DNA of 64,000 bases from Streptococcus merionis DSM 19192 (GTDB taxonomy: Bacteria > Bacillota > Bacilli > Lactobacillales > Streptococcaceae). Each line of letters starts with the position of its first letter. The stretch's first letter is position 1. Below the pieces are notes generated by a model. That model saw only the letters and a program-made list of their open reading frames with translations, made no database searches and had not been told where the DNA came from. Below, in pieces: positions 56,291 through 63,826 of the stretch. A program made the translations under genes and the position numbers. The DNA is taken from NCBI RefSeq assembly GCF_000380085.1, contig NZ_KB904558.1, positions 1-64,000 of the forward strand, given 5' to 3'.

Positions 56291-58432
56291 ATGACACAAT
56301 TCAATAAACAAAACTTTTCCATTCGTAAGTTATCGGTTGGAGGTTGTTCAGCATTTATTGGGCTTGCCCTATTTTCTACTACTCCTGTCTTTGCCAATGA
56401 AGCTTCTTCAATAGAACAAGATCCCTCACTAAGCACATCACAGCTAACAGAAATAGAAAACACGCAGAACAATTCAGAAGGAACTCTCGGTGCTGAAATG
56501 AAATCGGCAAGGACAAGTGACGAGATTATCCCGAAAGAAAGCGGCAATACAGAGTTAATACTTTCAGATGAGGCTCTAACACAAGAAGAATCCCTCACTG
56601 CTGAAATAAGACAAGCTGGCAATGAGGGAAATACTGAGCAAACATTTTCAAATGAACCTCTAAATATAAAAACACAATACGGTGCAATTGGCGATGGTAT
56701 TGCAGATGATCGCAAAGCTTTGCAAGATGCTATTGATGCAGCAAGCACAGGACTTGGGGGTGGTATCGTTTATCTCCCAGAGGGTACTTACCGCATGGAG
56801 GAAATTATCTTCCTCAAGAGTAATATTCATGTCCAACTTCACGAAAAAGCAACCATCCTAAACTACATCAATCAGAAAGATCATCCTTCTATTGTTTTTA
56901 TGACCGGTGAATTTACCGATGATGGAAAGCAGGTGGAATGGGCTCCAACCGAAAATATCACTTTTACTGGTGGAACTATTGATATGAATGGCCAGCTAAA
57001 TGCTGAGGGAACAAAGGCTAAAAATCTCCCACTTATCAACTCTTCTGGTGCTTTTGCTATCGGAAATTCAACTAATGTTACAATCCGTGATGTAACCTTC
57101 AAAGATAGTTATAAGGGGCATGCTATCCAAATTGCAGGGAGCAAAAACGTCCTTATTGATAATTCCCGTTTTATCGGCCAAGCCCTTCCAAATACCCTTA
57201 AAGATAGCCAACTTATCAATTATGAGAGCATTCAAATCGAACCCCTCACAAGGAAAGGTTTTCCTTATGCTCTTAATAATACTGGAGCAAAATCAGAAAA
57301 TATCACCATCCAAAATTCCTACTTTGGAAAAAGTAATACTGCTGGTGAATTAGTGACCGCTATCGGTACTCATTACCAAGATATGACAACCGAAAATCCA
57401 GAAAACATTAAAATCCTGAATAACCACTTTGATAATATGGTCTATGCCGGTATACGTTTTACAGGATTTACAAATGTCCTCATTCAAGGAAATCACTTCA
57501 CCAAAAAAGCGAAGGAAGATAGTATCCACTATCGCGAAAAAGGTGCTACATTAGTGAACGGTTATTCTTATAATAACAAAGATAAATCACATGTTCTGGA
57601 TTTGAACAAGCATATCACTGTCACGGAAAATACCTTTGATATTGCTGATTCCAATACCAAATCCATTCGTTTTGCGAAAGACAATGCTCAAAATTTAGGC
57701 GAGATTCGAGATATTGCAATTACTAATAATACAATTACATATACGCATCCCGACTCAAAGCAACCAGCTATCCAAACCTTGCGTGTCGTTGATAACTTGA
57801 CCATTACAGGAAATACAATTCTTGGTGGCTATCAAGGTATTACACTAGCAGAAACTTCTGGAGCTACTCTCCTAGCAAACAATATCATATCTAACGTGTC
57901 GGATACTTATATGGATTTATCTAAATTAGGGTCTAATCAGACAATTCATTTAAAAACACAAGGAGCTGGCACAATCGAATTAACCACTGATGATAACCAG
58001 TATCACTTCCTTGCAAAATCCAATTCTGGATTTGTCTATGCGGGGCTGTATAGTGATCCAGTGTCGAAGCAAAAAATTTCTGATGCTACGACATACTCTA
58101 TTCCAATAAACGAAGCCACTACTTCCTCACTAATCTTCTTATTTAATGTTCTATCCAAAGAAGAACAAGATGTTTCACCTAAAAGCAATCCTAAACTTCC
58201 AAGTAACCCTCAAAACAACAGGCCTAGTCCATTGAATGATATAAGAATAACTCTTAACACAACGGAGAAAAAAGATTCATCTCCTATATCGTCAATTACA
58301 AAGAAAGCCCAGATTTCACCTCAATCAATCTTACCAAGAACAGGACAGAGCACCTCAACGTTAACTCTATTAGGAAGTTTTATCCTGCTAGGAGTGGGGA
58401 TGAACTTAATATCAAAAAAAGATGGAAATTGA
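56291..58432 (+). CDS. LPXTG-anchored beta-helix protein (pectate-lyase-3-like)
   Basis: A 713-residue surface protein. A YSIRK-type signal (FSIRKLSVGGCSAFIGLALF, 11-30) is followed by an acidic Ser/Thr/Glu-rich stretch to about 120. The catalytic-looking domain starts NIKTQYGAIGDGIADDRKALQDAIDAA, typical of pectate_lyase_3 folds, and continues as right-handed beta-helix rungs (NVLIDNSRFIG, NIKILNNHFDN, NVLIQGNHFT, NLTITGNTILGG). The sorting signal LPRTG is near 681-685, then a hydrophobic helix and KKDGN. It is probably a polysaccharide hydrolase or lyase; the exact substrate is unknown. AAAGGAG precedes the ATG. Confidence 0.85.
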   Translation: MTQFNKQNFSIRKLSVGGCSAFIGLALFSTTPVFANEASSIEQDPSLSTSQLTEIENTQNNSEGTLGAEMKSARTSDEIIPKESGNTELILSDEALTQEESLTAEIRQAGNEGNTEQTFSNEPLNIKTQYGAIGDGIADDRKALQDAIDAASTGLGGGIVYLPEGTYRMEEIIFLKSNIHVQLHEKATILNYINQKDHPSIVFMTGEFTDDGKQVEWAPTENITFTGGTIDMNGQLNAEGTKAKNLPLINSSGAFAIGNSTNVTIRDVTFKDSYKGHAIQIAGSKNVLIDNSRFIGQALPNTLKDSQLINYESIQIEPLTRKGFPYALNNTGAKSENITIQNSYFGKSNTAGELVTAIGTHYQDMTTENPENIKILNNHFDNMVYAGIRFTGFTNVLIQGNHFTKKAKEDSIHYREKGATLVNGYSYNNKDKSHVLDLNKHITVTENTFDIADSNTKSIRFAKDNAQNLGEIRDIAITNNTITYTHPDSKQPAIQTLRVVDNLTITGNTILGGYQGITLAETSGATLLANNIISNVSDTYMDLSKLGSNQTIHLKTQGAGTIELTTDDNQYHFLAKSNSGFVYAGLYSDPVSKQKISDATTYSIPINEATTSSLIFLFNVLSKEEQDVSPKSNPKLPSNPQNNRPSPLNDIRITLNTTEKKDSSPISSITKKAQISPQSILPRTGQSTSTLTLLGSFILLGVGMNLISKKDGN

Positions 58433-59129: not shown

Positions 59130-61751
59130 TTAGAGGTTTTCTGCGACTGCTGATAAGAGCTTGTCCATACCTGACACATCGCTACCACCAGCCATAGCCA
59201 TATCTGGTTTACCGCCACCTCGACCTGAGATGTGAGGTGCCAGAGCCTTAACTAGATTCCCAGCATGAACACCATCAGACTTGCTAGCGACTAGGAGGTT
59301 GACCTTATCGCCGATAGCCGCCACAAGGACAAGCACATCAGAGTAGTCTTTCTGCTTCCAGTTGTCCGCAAAGGTACGAAGAGCACCAGCATCAGATACC
59401 TGAACCTGACTTGCAATATAACGTACCCCATGAGCCTCCTTGACGTCCTTAAAGACATCTCCAGCCGCTGCTGCGGCAGCCCTTTCTTTGAGGGCCGCGT
59501 TTTCTTTTTGAAGTTCACGCAATTGCTCTTGCAGGCTTGCTACCTTGCTTGGAACTTCCTTAATTTGTGGTGCTTTCAAAGTTGTTGCGATTTCCTTGAG
59601 GGCATCTTCTTGTTCACGGTAGGCCTTAAAGGCATCTGCACTGGTCACTGCAATGATCCGACGAGTCCCTGAACCAATCCCCTCTTCCTTGAGAATTTTG
59701 AAGAGGCCGATTTCTGAGGTGTTCTCCAAATGCGTTCCACCACAAAGCTCAATCGAGTAATCACCGATTTTGACGACACGCACACTCTGACCATATTTTT
59801 CACCAAAGAGTGCCATCGCACCAAGCGATTTCGCGGTATCAATGTCTGTTTCAATCGTTTCAATAGCAAGTGCTTCCCAGATTTTTTCATTGACCTGTGT
59901 TTCGATGGCACGGAGTTCTGCTGCTGTCACTGCTTCAAAATGGGTAAAGTCAAAGCGGAGCATGTCCTCGTCATTGAGGGAACCTGCCTGAGTTGCATGT
60001 TTGCCAAGGATATTGTGAAGGGCTGCGTGAAGCAAATGAGTAGCTGTGTGATTTTTTTCAACTGCGTAACGGCGCTTCTGATCCACGGCTAAATGGTAAG
60101 TCTGACCAAGGCTTAGATCTGCTAGGACGTCCAGCGTGTGAAGGGGTTGACCATTTGGTGCTTTTTGCACATCAACAACCTTGGCCACAATGTCCCCAGC
60201 AGCAGTCGTGATGAGACCATGATCCGCTACTTGACCCCCCATCTCCGCATAAAACGGCGTTTCTGTAAAGACAGCCAGAGCAGTCTGACCTGCTTGAACG
60301 GTTTCAACAGCTTCATTATCAAAAACAAGGGCGGTCAAGTCAGAATCAAGCGCTAACGTGTCGTAAACAAAGGCAGACGGCACTGTGATGTTTTGCAAGG
60401 TTTCATTTTGCATGCCCATAGAACCACCTTTGACCACTGCTGCCCGAGCGCGATCCTGCTGCTCTTTCATGGCAGCCTTAAACCCATCGTGATCAATCTT
60501 AAAACCAGCATCCTCAGCCAATTCCTCAGTCAGCTCCACTGGGAATCCGTAGGTATCATAAAGTTTGAAAATGTCCTGACCTTCAAGCGTGTCCTTGCCA
60601 GCAGCCTTAAGCTCTGCTAAGAGATCGTCCAAGTGACCTGATCCCGCATCGATGGTACGAGCAAAGGTATCTTCCTCACGCTTAACGATTTTTTCGATGA
60701 AATCGCGTTTTTCAAGGACTTCTGGGTAATAACTTTCCATGATTTGACCAACGGTCACGACCAATTTGTATAGGAAAGGCTCATTGATCCCCAGACGACG
60801 GCCGTGCATGACCGCTCGACGAAGGAGGCGGCGCAGAACATAACCCCGACCTTCATTACCTGGCAATGCACCATCGCCAATCGCAAATGTCAGCGAACGG
60901 ATATGGTCAGCAATCACCTTGAAACTCATATTATCCCCATCTGGGTCATAAGTCTTACCAGAAAGCTTTTCCACTTCACGAATGATTGGCATGAAGAGAT
61001 CCGTTTCAAAGTTAGTTTTGGCCCCTTGGAAAATCGAAACGATACGCTCCAAACCAGCACCCGTATCGATGTTTTTAGCTGGTAATTCCTTGTACTCTGA
61101 ACGAGGGACTTTAGGATCGGCATTGAATTGAGACAAAACGATGTTCCAGATCTCGATGTAGCGATCGTTCTCGATATCTTCTGCAATCAAGCGTATGCCA
61201 ATATTTTCAGGGTCAAAGGCTTCACCACGGTCATAGAAAATCTCTGTGTCTGGACCAGAAGGGCCTGCACCGATTTCCCAAAAATTGTCCTCAACCGGAA
61301 TGAGGTGACTTGGGTCAACCCCCAATTCAATCCAGCGATTGTAGGAATCCTTGTCCTCAGGATAGTAAGTCATGTAAAGCTTGTCCAACTCAAAACCAAA
61401 CCATTCTGGGCTGGTCAAAAGTTCAAAAGCAAAGCCAATGGCTTCATCGCGGAAATAATCACCAATAGAGAAATTTCCCAGCATTTCAAACATGGTATGA
61501 TGACGAGCAGTCTTTCCGACATTTTCAATATCATTGGTCCGAATAGACTTTTGAGCATTGGTAATCCGTGGATTTTCAGGAATAACAGAGCCGTCAAAAT
61601 ATTTTTTGAGAGTTGCAACCCCAGAGTTAATCCAAAGAAGGGTCGGGTCATTGACAGGTACTAAGTTAGCCGATGGCTCAACTGAGTGCCCTTTTGATTC
61701 AAAAAAGTCAAGCCACATTTGGCGAACTTGTGCAGAAGATAATTGTTTCAT
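59130..61751 (-). CDS. alaS: Alanyl-tRNA synthetase
   Basis: An 873-residue class II synthetase that charges tRNA-Ala and edits mischarged Ser and Gly. In order: the class II core ([49 protein letters not shown]), a tRNA-binding helical region, the editing domain with [13 protein letters not shown] (about 567-579) and [11 protein letters not shown], then a coiled coil and C-Ala domain ending [12 protein letters not shown]. The second ATG (MKQLSSAQV) is chosen because AAAGGA is correctly spaced from it. It is 415 bases after the LURP-one gene and may share the T-box-controlled transcript. Confidence 0.97.
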
Positions 61752-61839
61752 TTTCATATTCCTTTATTGTAAGATATAGAGCTATTAAGAAATCCTTCGA
61801 AAGCATGAGAAAACTTTTAAGCCTCTAGGGAGTTTTTCA

Positions 61840-62165
61840 GTTACAGTTTTTAGTTTTATACATAATCTTCAGAGATTACAAACTTTTGGGGTTAGAGCAG
61901 AGCCATCATGGCTATCTGTCTAGTGTGATGATGTCGAAGAGTTAGCTGCAATGGCTTCCTGCTCCTTGACGTAATCAATAGCGATGACGAGAGAAATGAC
62001 TAGATCCGCATAACTGTCTTCGGAGAGGCTGGTATAAAAGTAATCGGTCTCGTTTCTTTTGTAGTTTAAACAGATTGACGCAGTAGTTGTCTGGGTTGTA
62101 AAATACTGATAATTCACCATTCTACAACCCTAGCCAACTTTGCGGGGGTGAGACGACGAAGTCAA
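61840..62165. repeat. Composite intergenic repeat beside alaS
   Basis: An inverted family A core (61854-61911: TTTATACATAATCTTCAG onward to GCCATCATGGC) is followed by sequence resembling 12780-12830 (GATTGACGCAGTAGTTGTCTGG) and by a GGGGGTGAGACGACGAAG...CTCTCACTCCC hairpin close to the LURP-one stop. A 66-codon frame in it (61920-62120) is probably not a gene. The block separates the T-box/LURP-one unit from alaS. Confidence 0.7.
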
Positions 62166-62564
62166 TTATGACTTCTCTCTCACTCCCATACGCAACCATT
62201 CCTGACGGATTTTGGCAACGGTCTGCCCTACTTGCTTAAGCGTAAAGTTCATATCCCAGAAATCACCCTGAACCGTCATGCCAAGGCCTGAAATCGTATA
62301 TTTAGGCTTAAAGAAGGTCCATTCTTTTTTGATCGTAAATCTCTGCCCAGTCGCCAAAGTCACTGTAAACTGAGGCAAGAAAGTCAGGATTTTCTTCTCG
62401 ATTTTACTGACTAGTCTACCTTGCGTGTCTGCAATCGTAAAGGTCTTCGGAATCTGGAAAAAGCTTCCAGTGACTTCATAGGCTGGTAGACCTAGTTCAT
62501 CTTTAATGGTGAATTTCCCACCTAAAGCCCACATTTTTTGCTTGATTTCAAAATATTTTGCCAT
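62166..62564 (-). CDS. LURP-one-related protein
   Basis: A 132-residue protein of the LURP-one/Tubby-like beta-barrel family: FEIKQKMWALGGKFTIKDELGLPAYEVTGSFFQIPKTFTIAD and later TFFKPKYTISGLGM. Bacterial members have no known reaction; some bind membrane lipids. GGGAGG precedes the ATG. It lies directly behind a T-box leader, so its expression should rise when tRNA-Ala is uncharged, which is odd for a non-synthetase unless alaS is part of the same transcript. Confidence 0.82.
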   Translation of the reverse strand: MAKYFEIKQKMWALGGKFTIKDELGLPAYEVTGSFFQIPKTFTIADTQGRLVSKIEKKILTFLPQFTVTLATGQRFTIKKEWTFFKPKYTISGLGMTVQGDFWDMNFTLKQVGQTVAKIRQEWLRMGVREKS

Positions 62565-62592
62565 AAGAACCTCCCTAAGACAAGAAGAAGCC

Positions 62593-62790
62593 CATCAAAC
62601 GAAGGGCGAAAACCGCGGTACCACCTTCATTCGATGAACTTGTCATCCTCGTTGAGCCAAAGCTCAGCTATAAAAAGTGCAGAAGCACTTATTGTCAAAC
62701 AAGTAGCAACATCCGCTCAGCAAAGATGGCTCGCACTAACCGCCACTTCCCTGAATTTGCTTTAAGAGGGAGGATTCTTGTTTGTTGATC
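62593..62790 (-). ncRNA. T-box riboswitch leader, alanine type
   Basis: Read on the minus strand, the T-box sequence AAGGTGGTACCGCGG is at 62613-62627. A competing terminator pairs CATCGAATGAAGG (62624-62636) with CCTTCGTTTGATG (62593-62605), holding the T-box sequence in its loop, as expected. Upstream stems include GTGC..GCAC and TGAGC..GCTCA, and a stem I region with AGTGCGAGCC. The specifier is best read as GCU, followed by A, at 62705-62707, which codes alanine. It begins just after the prsA stop. Confidence 0.88.
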
Positions 62791-62794
62791 TTCA

Positions 62795-63757
62795 TCATTC
62801 AGAAGTTGATGATGACGTCTCTGTCTTGTCGGTCTTGGTGTATTGCGAAAGAAGACCTTGGAAGGCTTGATCTTTAACTTTCACATTGGCTGCTTGAAGT
62901 TCATCAGAAACAACGCCTGTGATAAAGGTTGCATCAGCTTTTTTCTGAGCCAAGATCGCTTTTTTCAACGTATCCTGATAATCTTTCCAGTTATCAGACT
63001 TCTCTGTTTTTTCGTTAAGTTTAACCACATAATAGCTGGTTGCATAAGTTTGAGGATCAACGACAGTCACCACAGACTCTCCAACTTTACCTGCTTCAAG
63101 AGCGAAAATAGCCTTTTGCAATTGGGCTGGAATGTCAGTAGAGGTAGAATCAAAAGTGACATTTCCCCCTTTTTCTTTAGTGGCAGTGTCTATCGAATTG
63201 TCCTTAGCTAATTGAGCAAAATCAGCACCCTCGGCCTTAGCTTTTTCAAGGACTTCGTTAGCTTTTGCTTCGTCTGCCAACTTGATGATTTGAGCTTTCA
63301 CTTCAGGTGTATAAGCATCGTAAGCTGCTTTGTAAGCTTCATCAGTCAATTCTTTTTCGGCTGCTTGAGATACTGCATACTCTACCAATTTATTGGTGCG
63401 GATTTGAGACCTATAGCTCTCCTCGGTCATACCGGCTGATGACAGAGCTTTAGCAAAGTTATCACCATATCGCTTCGCACTTTCCTCGTAAGCCTTTTGA
63501 ACCTCTTCATCGGTCACCTTTGAGCCATATTTAGCTTCAAAGATAGAGGTGATGACTTGTTCGAGAAGAACTTGTTGAGCGGCCTTATTGTTTTTGACCA
63601 CATCATAAAATTCTGAAACGGTGATGGTATCACCTTTCATCGTAATGATGTCTGAATCTGCGTTTGTTTTTGAAGTCACTGATAAGGTTGCTACTGAAGC
63701 AATGACTGCTGTCGCAATCAAGGCAATACCAGTGCCGACAATAGATTTTCTATTCAT
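62795..63757 (-). CDS. prsA: Foldase PrsA without lipobox cysteine
   Basis: A 320-residue extracytoplasmic folding protein with an N-terminal chaperone region, a parvulin-like PPIase core (VKAQIIKLADEAKANEVLEKAKAEGADFAQLAKDNSID... KGGNVTFDSTSTDIP) and a helical tail (LQAANVKVKDQAFQGLLSQYTK) ending in a Ser/Thr-rich end. Streptococcal PrsA is normally a lipoprotein with LAAC. Here the matching position reads LSVT at 25-28, with no cysteine in the whole protein, so lipid anchoring looks lost. It may stay as a signal-anchored or secreted form. AAGGAG precedes the ATG. Confidence 0.9.
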   Translation of the reverse strand: MNRKSIVGTGIALIATAVIASVATLSVTSKTNADSDIITMKGDTITVSEFYDVVKNNKAAQQVLLEQVITSIFEAKYGSKVTDEEVQKAYEESAKRYGDNFAKALSSAGMTEESYRSQIRTNKLVEYAVSQAAEKELTDEAYKAAYDAYTPEVKAQIIKLADEAKANEVLEKAKAEGADFAQLAKDNSIDTATKEKGGNVTFDSTSTDIPAQLQKAIFALEAGKVGESVVTVVDPQTYATSYYVVKLNEKTEKSDNWKDYQDTLKKAILAQKKADATFITGVVSDELQAANVKVKDQAFQGLLSQYTKTDKTETSSSTSE

Positions 63758-63794: not shown

Positions 63795-63800
63795 ATTATA
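63795..63800 (-). promoter_or_regulatory. prsA promoter (-10 box)
   Basis: The minus strand reads ATGGTATAAT, a perfect extended -10 box about 40 bases before the prsA ATG. No strong -35 is seen. Confidence 0.6.
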
Positions 63801-63826
63801 CCATAAAACCTTGAAGAATACTTAAA

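Follow-up and report, generated by a model that had tools for sequence, protein, structure and literature searches.

The closest described counterparts of the locus treated here are the alanine T-boxes of Streptococcus pneumoniae and Streptococcus agalactiae (PMC2494555, PMC8546594), which, according to the accessible portions of these papers, also precede a hypothetical gene linked to the Ala-tRNA ligase and, in S. pneumoniae, give rise to a discrete leader RNA. Specifically, spr1241 of S. pneumoniae and SAG0809 of S. agalactiae appear in the accessible part of Wels et al. (2008; PMC2494555) as alanine T-box genes described as 'Ala-tRNA ligase related hypothetical', and from the gene order we infer that both are LURP-one genes. 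Spd-sr70, a pneumococcal T-box small RNA that its authors place in the 5' UTR of the alaS operon, is documented by sRNA-seq and Northern blot in the accessible part of PMC8546594. In transcriptional T-boxes, the terminator takes its 5' strand from the 3' strands of the antiterminator helices A1 and A2, and in the model given in reviews charged tRNA lets the terminator capture these strands (accessible parts of PMC7583486 and PMC10907184). The role of stem III was called unclear in the available portion of a single-molecule study (PMC6197855), and the element is called integral to the sensing domain in that of a later review (PMC7583486). Neither a promoterless T-box following prsA nor an antiterminator enclosed by the terminator is described in the accessible text of PMC2494555 and PMC8546594. 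A search of the open-access PMC literature, outside which key T-box papers may lie, retrieved no nested T-box terminator, and likewise no paper pairing LURP-one with Streptococcus was found in this literature.

The window, that is, the whole analysed stretch of 64,000 nucleotides from Streptococcus merionis DSM 19192 (NZ_KB904558.1), carries the locus on its minus strand with the following features.

63757 down to 59130, minus strand: gene order prsA-like foldase gene, T-box leader, LURP-one, remnant ORF, alaS
63795..63803, minus strand: extended -10 element TGGTATAAT before prsA, the best match upstream of this gene and likely promoter of the whole transcript
62795..63757, minus strand: prsA-like foldase gene, 320 aa (Pfam Rotamase/Rotamase_3), whose stop codon adjoins the T-box leader
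62599..62794, minus strand: alanine T-box leader (RF00230)
62696..62784, minus strand: stem I (RF00230 alignment and sequence); the basal helix, assigned by eye, is CAAACAAG/CTTGTTTG
62705..62707, minus strand: specifier GCU (alanine), from the sequence
62633..62647, minus strand: stem III, GATGA-CAAGT-TCATC, whose loop and 3' strand double as predicted terminator 5' strand
62601..62628, minus strand: antiterminator A1/A2 with the T-box bulge UGGUACC
62588..62641, minus strand: predicted terminator hairpin enclosing the antiterminator, with A1 kept (folding)
62577-62587, minus strand: terminator tail CTTCTTGTCTT, without an unbroken U run
62166..62564, minus strand: LURP-one gene (PF04525), truncated to 132 aa compared to about 160-166 aa in relatives
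62044..62187, minus strand, end point approximate: copy of a dispersed repeat that interrupts the LURP-one 3' end
61920..62120, minus strand: 66-aa ORF with repeat-derived start and the cut-off LURP-one tail YADLVISLVIAIDYVKEQEA, without Pfam match
59130..61757, minus strand: alaS, 875 aa (PF01411, 609.7 bits)

The leader is a genuine alanine T-box, confirming what a preliminary description made from the letters alone had proposed. With lax filters, a covariance search of 901 bases gives a match to RF00230 at 62794..62599 on the minus strand (44.1 bits, E 2.6e-8), and the covariance check which that description had suggested also succeeds genome-wide (E 1.7e-8), the leader being the sixth of eight clear T-boxes found with RF00230 in the whole genome. 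At gathering threshold, an Rfam scan of the window returns no match at all, the 44.1 bits of the leader comparing to a gathering score of 93 bits, which is the curators' cut-off and not a biological feature. This score is reached by none of the eight clear T-boxes of this genome, and two of 14 control genomes have one that passes. As had been read, the specifier is GCU (GCT at 62707..62705) and thus not a codon for another amino acid. It recurs in all of the 107 leaders that could be parsed among 113 distinct streptococcal ones (six not parsed), in 106 by the pattern GCT[AG]CT and in one, GCTACC, by eye. Stem I with the specifier, T-box bulge, A1/A2 antiterminator and stem III are all present. 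In an alignment of 56 non-redundant leaders, the bulge UGGUACC is invariant (56/56), A1 and A2 are paired in 100% of cells with one A1 pair being A-U in 51 and G-C in 5 leaders, and stem III is paired in 280/280 cells, its outer pair occurring as A-U (49), G-C (4) or G-U (3). Genes for tRNA-Ala with the anticodons GGC and TGC are present in the genome (9/30 tRNA loci scanned, among 48 matches).

The assignment of the first gene as LURP-one-related also stands, since its 132-aa product matches Pfam LOR (PF04525) with 33.6 bits at a gathering cut-off of 24.5. What does not stand is the impression that LURP-one in front of alaS is odd: this order is common in streptococci and was already tabulated in 2008 (accessible part of PMC2494555). 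Among 35 loci encoding a close LURP-one relative (34 from Streptococcus and one from Lactiplantibacillus), a T-box motif directly precedes LURP-one in 33 and alaS follows it in 34. The exceptions are L044, having neither T-box motif nor alaS, and L016, where the T-box was missed by the strict motif and recovered in a later leader scan. Downstream of the 113 distinct leaders, LURP-one is found in 98 cases, alaS within 450 nt in 14 and neither of them in one. The option of a single alanine-sensing transcript covering both genes is supported by this conserved order of T-box, LURP-one and alaS as well as by the lack of promoter and terminator matches between the genes on the transcribed strand. 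Overall, the earlier interpretation is partly supported; it passed over the promoterless state of the leader, prsA as the likely source of the transcript and a terminator enclosing the antiterminator.

Between LURP-one and alaS, the gap comprises 408 bases. A repeat does lie ahead of alaS, as had been stated, but it measures about 145 bases, running from 62187 to about 62044, and not the approximately 300 assumed, and it starts inside the LURP-one reading frame. Using 62200..62040 as query against this genome, at least 30 matches were obtained from 40 of 50 candidates scored, the own site included and some of them representing pieces of one copy. Three full-length copies begin at the base matching 62187, and their matches end between 62049 and 62022. 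In eight aligned relatives, LURP-one continues into a tail like TSTYxVxVYDExYADLVISLVIAIDYVKE, whereas here the frame runs into the repeat and stops at 132 codons, its severed tail persisting in the 66-aa ORF that follows. On the basis of this alignment, the idea of a distinct small gene ahead of alaS was rejected. Counted from the match start, LURP-one frames comprise 159 codons or more in 33 of 34 Streptococcus records; in the remaining one (L016:5001-5186, Streptococcus sp. S784/96/1), the frame is also broken, stopping at 61 codons, and a promoterless leader is located behind prsA.

The second option of the preliminary description, a repeat that has cut off alaS from its riboswitch, would fit with the 408 bases separating both genes and with the position of the repeat across the LURP-one end. 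However, the transcribed strand of the gap shows neither a terminator nor a promoter match, its best promoter-like site being no better than in shuffled sequences (54/200 as good), and the gene order persists in species where the two genes lie about 150-260 bases apart (L012, L013 and L017). Such an uncoupling is thus very unlikely, the repeat interrupting LURP-one instead, and a role of the repeat as insulator was rejected on the same lack of terminator and promoter matches. Besides, the repeat at 62145-62201 on the minus strand matches positions 1-67 of 270 of the staphylococcal sRNA family S35 in Rfam (24 bits versus a gathering score of 69), perhaps due to a shared repeat hairpin. On the opposite strand, at 62075-62104 (plus), it bears a promoter-like site (10/12, the best of nine found) from which an antisense RNA over the LURP-one end could originate.

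Most streptococcal leaders examined possess a promoter of the type TTGACn-17-TATAAT about 165 nt upstream of the T-box core. Among 284 genomes of the genus scanned, 241 contained the core and 185 the core together with the promoter, a difference that is not a count of promoterless leaders because the patterns are strict. For comparing individual leaders, 141 loci were oriented, seven of them without the strict core pattern, and the remaining 134 collapsed to the 113 distinct leaders. This sample is non-random, since leaders lacking the promoter match were deliberately over-represented in it (17 added in this way). Within this sample, a promoter match of at least 10/12 is present in 74 and absent in 39 leaders. 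The prsA stop codon lies no more than 330 nt from the core in 37 leaders without and 49 leaders with promoter, while all 25 leaders lacking prsA in the flanking DNA examined have a promoter. In the two other promoterless cases (L155 and L156), prsA is farther off and a repeat-like block sits between it and the T-box. The loci of Streptococcus oralis and Streptococcus infantis differ from the window in having a leader promoter and no prsA in the flanking DNA examined. Where promoter and adjoining prsA coincide, the -35 element is placed 0-13 nt after the prsA stop in 46 of 49 leaders and 34 nt after it in three, which leaves little room for a prsA terminator.

The 37 promoterless leaders adjoining prsA, among them those of the window and Streptococcus moroccensis, all carry the stem I box, AGAAT or a variant of it, 2-17 nt after the prsA stop, and some of them keep a TTGAC after this stop without a -10 element at the usual spacing. 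Upstream of the window leader no promoter-like site was found (166/200 shuffles as good), whereas the extended -10 element TGGTATAAT upstream of prsA is matched by 15/200 shuffles. Since the leader promoter is missing and stem I starts no more than about 17 nt after the prsA stop, the polymerase transcribing the T-box in these lineages probably arrives via prsA. A promoter of other type in the prsA 3' end is conceivable. On an alaS tree of 111 rows, in which 60 of 92 inner branches are unsupported and L161 forms a long branch, at least six changes of promoter state are needed, the row nearest to the window being S. moroccensis with the same state. Additional irregularities were noticed in individual leaders, such as a repeat-like block within stem I itself in L141 (by eye) and, among L055, L064, L121, L122 and L124, about 150 additional bases separating stem I from stem III. 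The latter five keep TTGACG after the prsA stop with no -10 element at the usual spacing.

With the canonical class I T-box, the leader shares stem I with the specifier, stem III, the A1/A2 antiterminator with its UGGN bulge and a downstream hairpin. In contrast to it, A1 stays paired here, and the predicted terminator draws its 5' strand from stem III. Thermodynamic folding, which does not follow the course of transcription, gave for ten leaders a minimum free energy (MFE) structure consisting of one long hairpin built on helix A1, with a lower stem in which stem III, through its loop and 3' strand, pairs with the bases preceding the U tract. Stem III and this lower stem are mutually exclusive, while A1 is compatible with both. 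A1 is kept in the terminator fold of all 113 streptococcal leaders. In 97 of them the T-box bulge is open and A2 paired, leaving the antiterminator whole inside the terminator, and in 16, including the window and S. moroccensis, A1 stays and the bulge or A2 re-pairs. In the window copy, it is the hairpin tip that re-pairs, covering part of the T-box bulge.

In the 56 non-redundant leaders, the lower stem is paired in 90.6% of cells. The column pair 22-74 occurs as UA (21), UG (10), GC (3), AU (1) and CG (1), with seven rows not paired and 13 gapped, and this covariation cannot be explained by stem III because column 22 sits in the stem III loop. Within Streptococcus, ten cells of the lower stem are changed on both sides, compared to a mean of 1.9 after shuffling (reached in 0/500 shuffles), while only two pairs are affected by such changes, compared to 1.2 after shuffling (reached in 153/500). 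Outside the genus, 19 leaders show five pairs (18/500 shuffles) and 12 cells (0/500) changed on both sides. RNAalifold applied to the 56-row alignment chose stem III plus antiterminator and not the terminator. Taken together, alignment and folding show a conserved stem of the predicted terminator employing stem III as 5' strand.

The nested topology was scored by a rule that was revised twice, the third version being quoted here. It assigns 113/113 streptococcal and 29/29 Lactobacillales alaS leaders as nested (the latter set has 30 loci, one without core, and overlaps with the streptococcal one), whereas 20 of 22 alaS leaders from other Bacilli (24 of the loci found, two without core) are exclusive, that is, of the ordinary strand-exchange type. 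The two others, L220 and L225, were called nested, yet their folds show a downstream hairpin. Among T-box controls from the own genome, six of seven are exclusive. Under the first rule, 112/113 streptococcal leaders were nested, the window being the exception as the U run used lay within LURP-one, the order gave 27/29 nested (not the window and L198), and 18/22 leaders from other Bacilli as well as 5/5 own-genome controls were exclusive. The second rule resulted in 113/113 and 29/29 nested and 22/22 other Bacilli exclusive, but called three of five own-genome controls nested, contrary to their folds. When only the downstream part is folded, median values are -12.0 and -11.6 kcal/mol for the Lactobacillales sets and -25.3 kcal/mol for other Bacilli, with -16.0 kcal/mol for the window; the ranges just fail to overlap (-18.4 in Lactobacillales versus -19.0 in other Bacilli). 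The one nested control (L004, contig C5:47503-47666) is a second T-box terminator of this kind in the same genome, scored by the same rule, present as one copy and specific for a different amino acid. It is positioned upstream of a serS-like ORF, this identity as well as its TCT specifier having been read by eye.

In principle, the leader might still be an ordinary class I T-box possessing a promoter of its own that escaped recognition and the usual strand-exchange terminator, for which GCCC could pair with a GGGC just downstream. These four pairs can form in the window, the fold of the window copy re-pairs A2, and 74 of the 113 distinct leaders of the non-random sample do have a promoter match. 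Nevertheless, this explanation is unlikely given that no promoter-like site precedes the window leader, that downstream-only folding is weaker in Lactobacillales than in other Bacilli and that GCCC/GGGC is not generally conserved, for which reason it was also rejected as main terminator. The alaS leader is not filed under the canonical class I platform, because the 3' strands of A1 and A2 do not form the 5' strand of the predicted terminator.

We consider it likely that the alanine T-box acts as a conditional terminator within a prsA-LURP-one-alaS operon, employing a nested terminator that makes use of stem III. RNA polymerase would come from the promoter of prsA. When tRNA-Ala is charged, stem III would open and its strand would pair downstream, lengthening the A1 helix into the long terminator, so that the transcript would end behind prsA. 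Uncharged tRNA-Ala bound to the T-box bulge, on the other hand, would keep stem III docked on the antiterminator, the long hairpin could not close and polymerase would proceed into LURP-one and alaS. If A1 is indeed present in both states, any account of how the tRNA keeps the lower stem from forming is a guess. Whereas the gene order is common and in print, the promoterless, prsA-fed position and the terminator enclosing the antiterminator may be new, the latter being the more important.

The terminator of the window itself departs from those of its relatives. The GACAAG/CUUGUC arm is present in 113/113 leaders, but the eight bases following this helix contain only one U in the window, the lowest number of all 113, while S. 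moroccensis has three and the others have at least four. With closure at AAGUUCAUC/GAUGGGCUU instead, the hairpin leaves the tail CUUCUUGUCUU, which is U-rich but broken. With the poorest U tract of all, the terminator may hardly terminate, and the broken tract probably makes termination leaky in this genome. The locus could even represent a decaying riboswitch, having lost promoter and U tract and with LURP-one truncated, so that alaS would be read constitutively from prsA. The U tract, the repeat in LURP-one and the absence of an own promoter match would agree with that. Decay is nevertheless doubtful, as specifier, T-box bulge, antiterminator and stem III are intact, a change from A-U to G-C in stem III keeps the pair, and the hairpin (MFE -29.7 kcal/mol, z -2.75) is stabler than most shuffles, only 2/200 being as good. 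Control by this copy may be either reduced or lost.

Alternatively, the leader might have changed to translational control, the former U tract CUUCUU pairing with the Shine-Dalgarno sequence AGGGAG of LURP-one. Indeed, the MFE fold of 62650..62570 pairs CUUCUUG with UAGGGAG, but this helix is weak, being short and containing several G-U pairs, and it was not seen in S. moroccensis (by eye). Since these bases are available in either state, the pairing is independent of the switch and would not constitute one. Translational control is considered very unlikely. By eye, CCUCCCU of stem I could also pair with the ribosome site AGGGAGG, the match being weaker in S. moroccensis.

Extending the conditional-terminator reading beyond this strain, we give about even chances to the proposal that the alaS T-boxes of Lactobacillales form a distinct platform, in which A1 is kept in both states and stem III competes with an enclosing terminator, and that promoter loss has turned them into conditional terminators in prsA-(LURP-one)-alaS operons of several streptococcal lineages. 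If true, the transcript of the secretion foldase PrsA would be tied to the charging of alanine tRNA. Furthermore, if the alaS leaders of an order leave A1 unbroken, stem III has to be the place where the switch is read, and orthologous leaders with two topologies (Lactobacillales versus other Bacilli) would make this stem III readout directly testable. Loss of the leader promoter beside prsA would also show a riboswitch moving from a leader to a mid-operon position.

Finally, in S. oralis DD21 (L037:6098-8596) the alaS match is in two pieces with a gap, which may be due to an insertion or a break in the assembly. Elsewhere in the window, at 56291-58432 on the plus strand, a 713-aa protein is encoded which has a signal-like start, a stretch GDGIADDRKAL with a beta-helix look and an LPRTG sorting motif.
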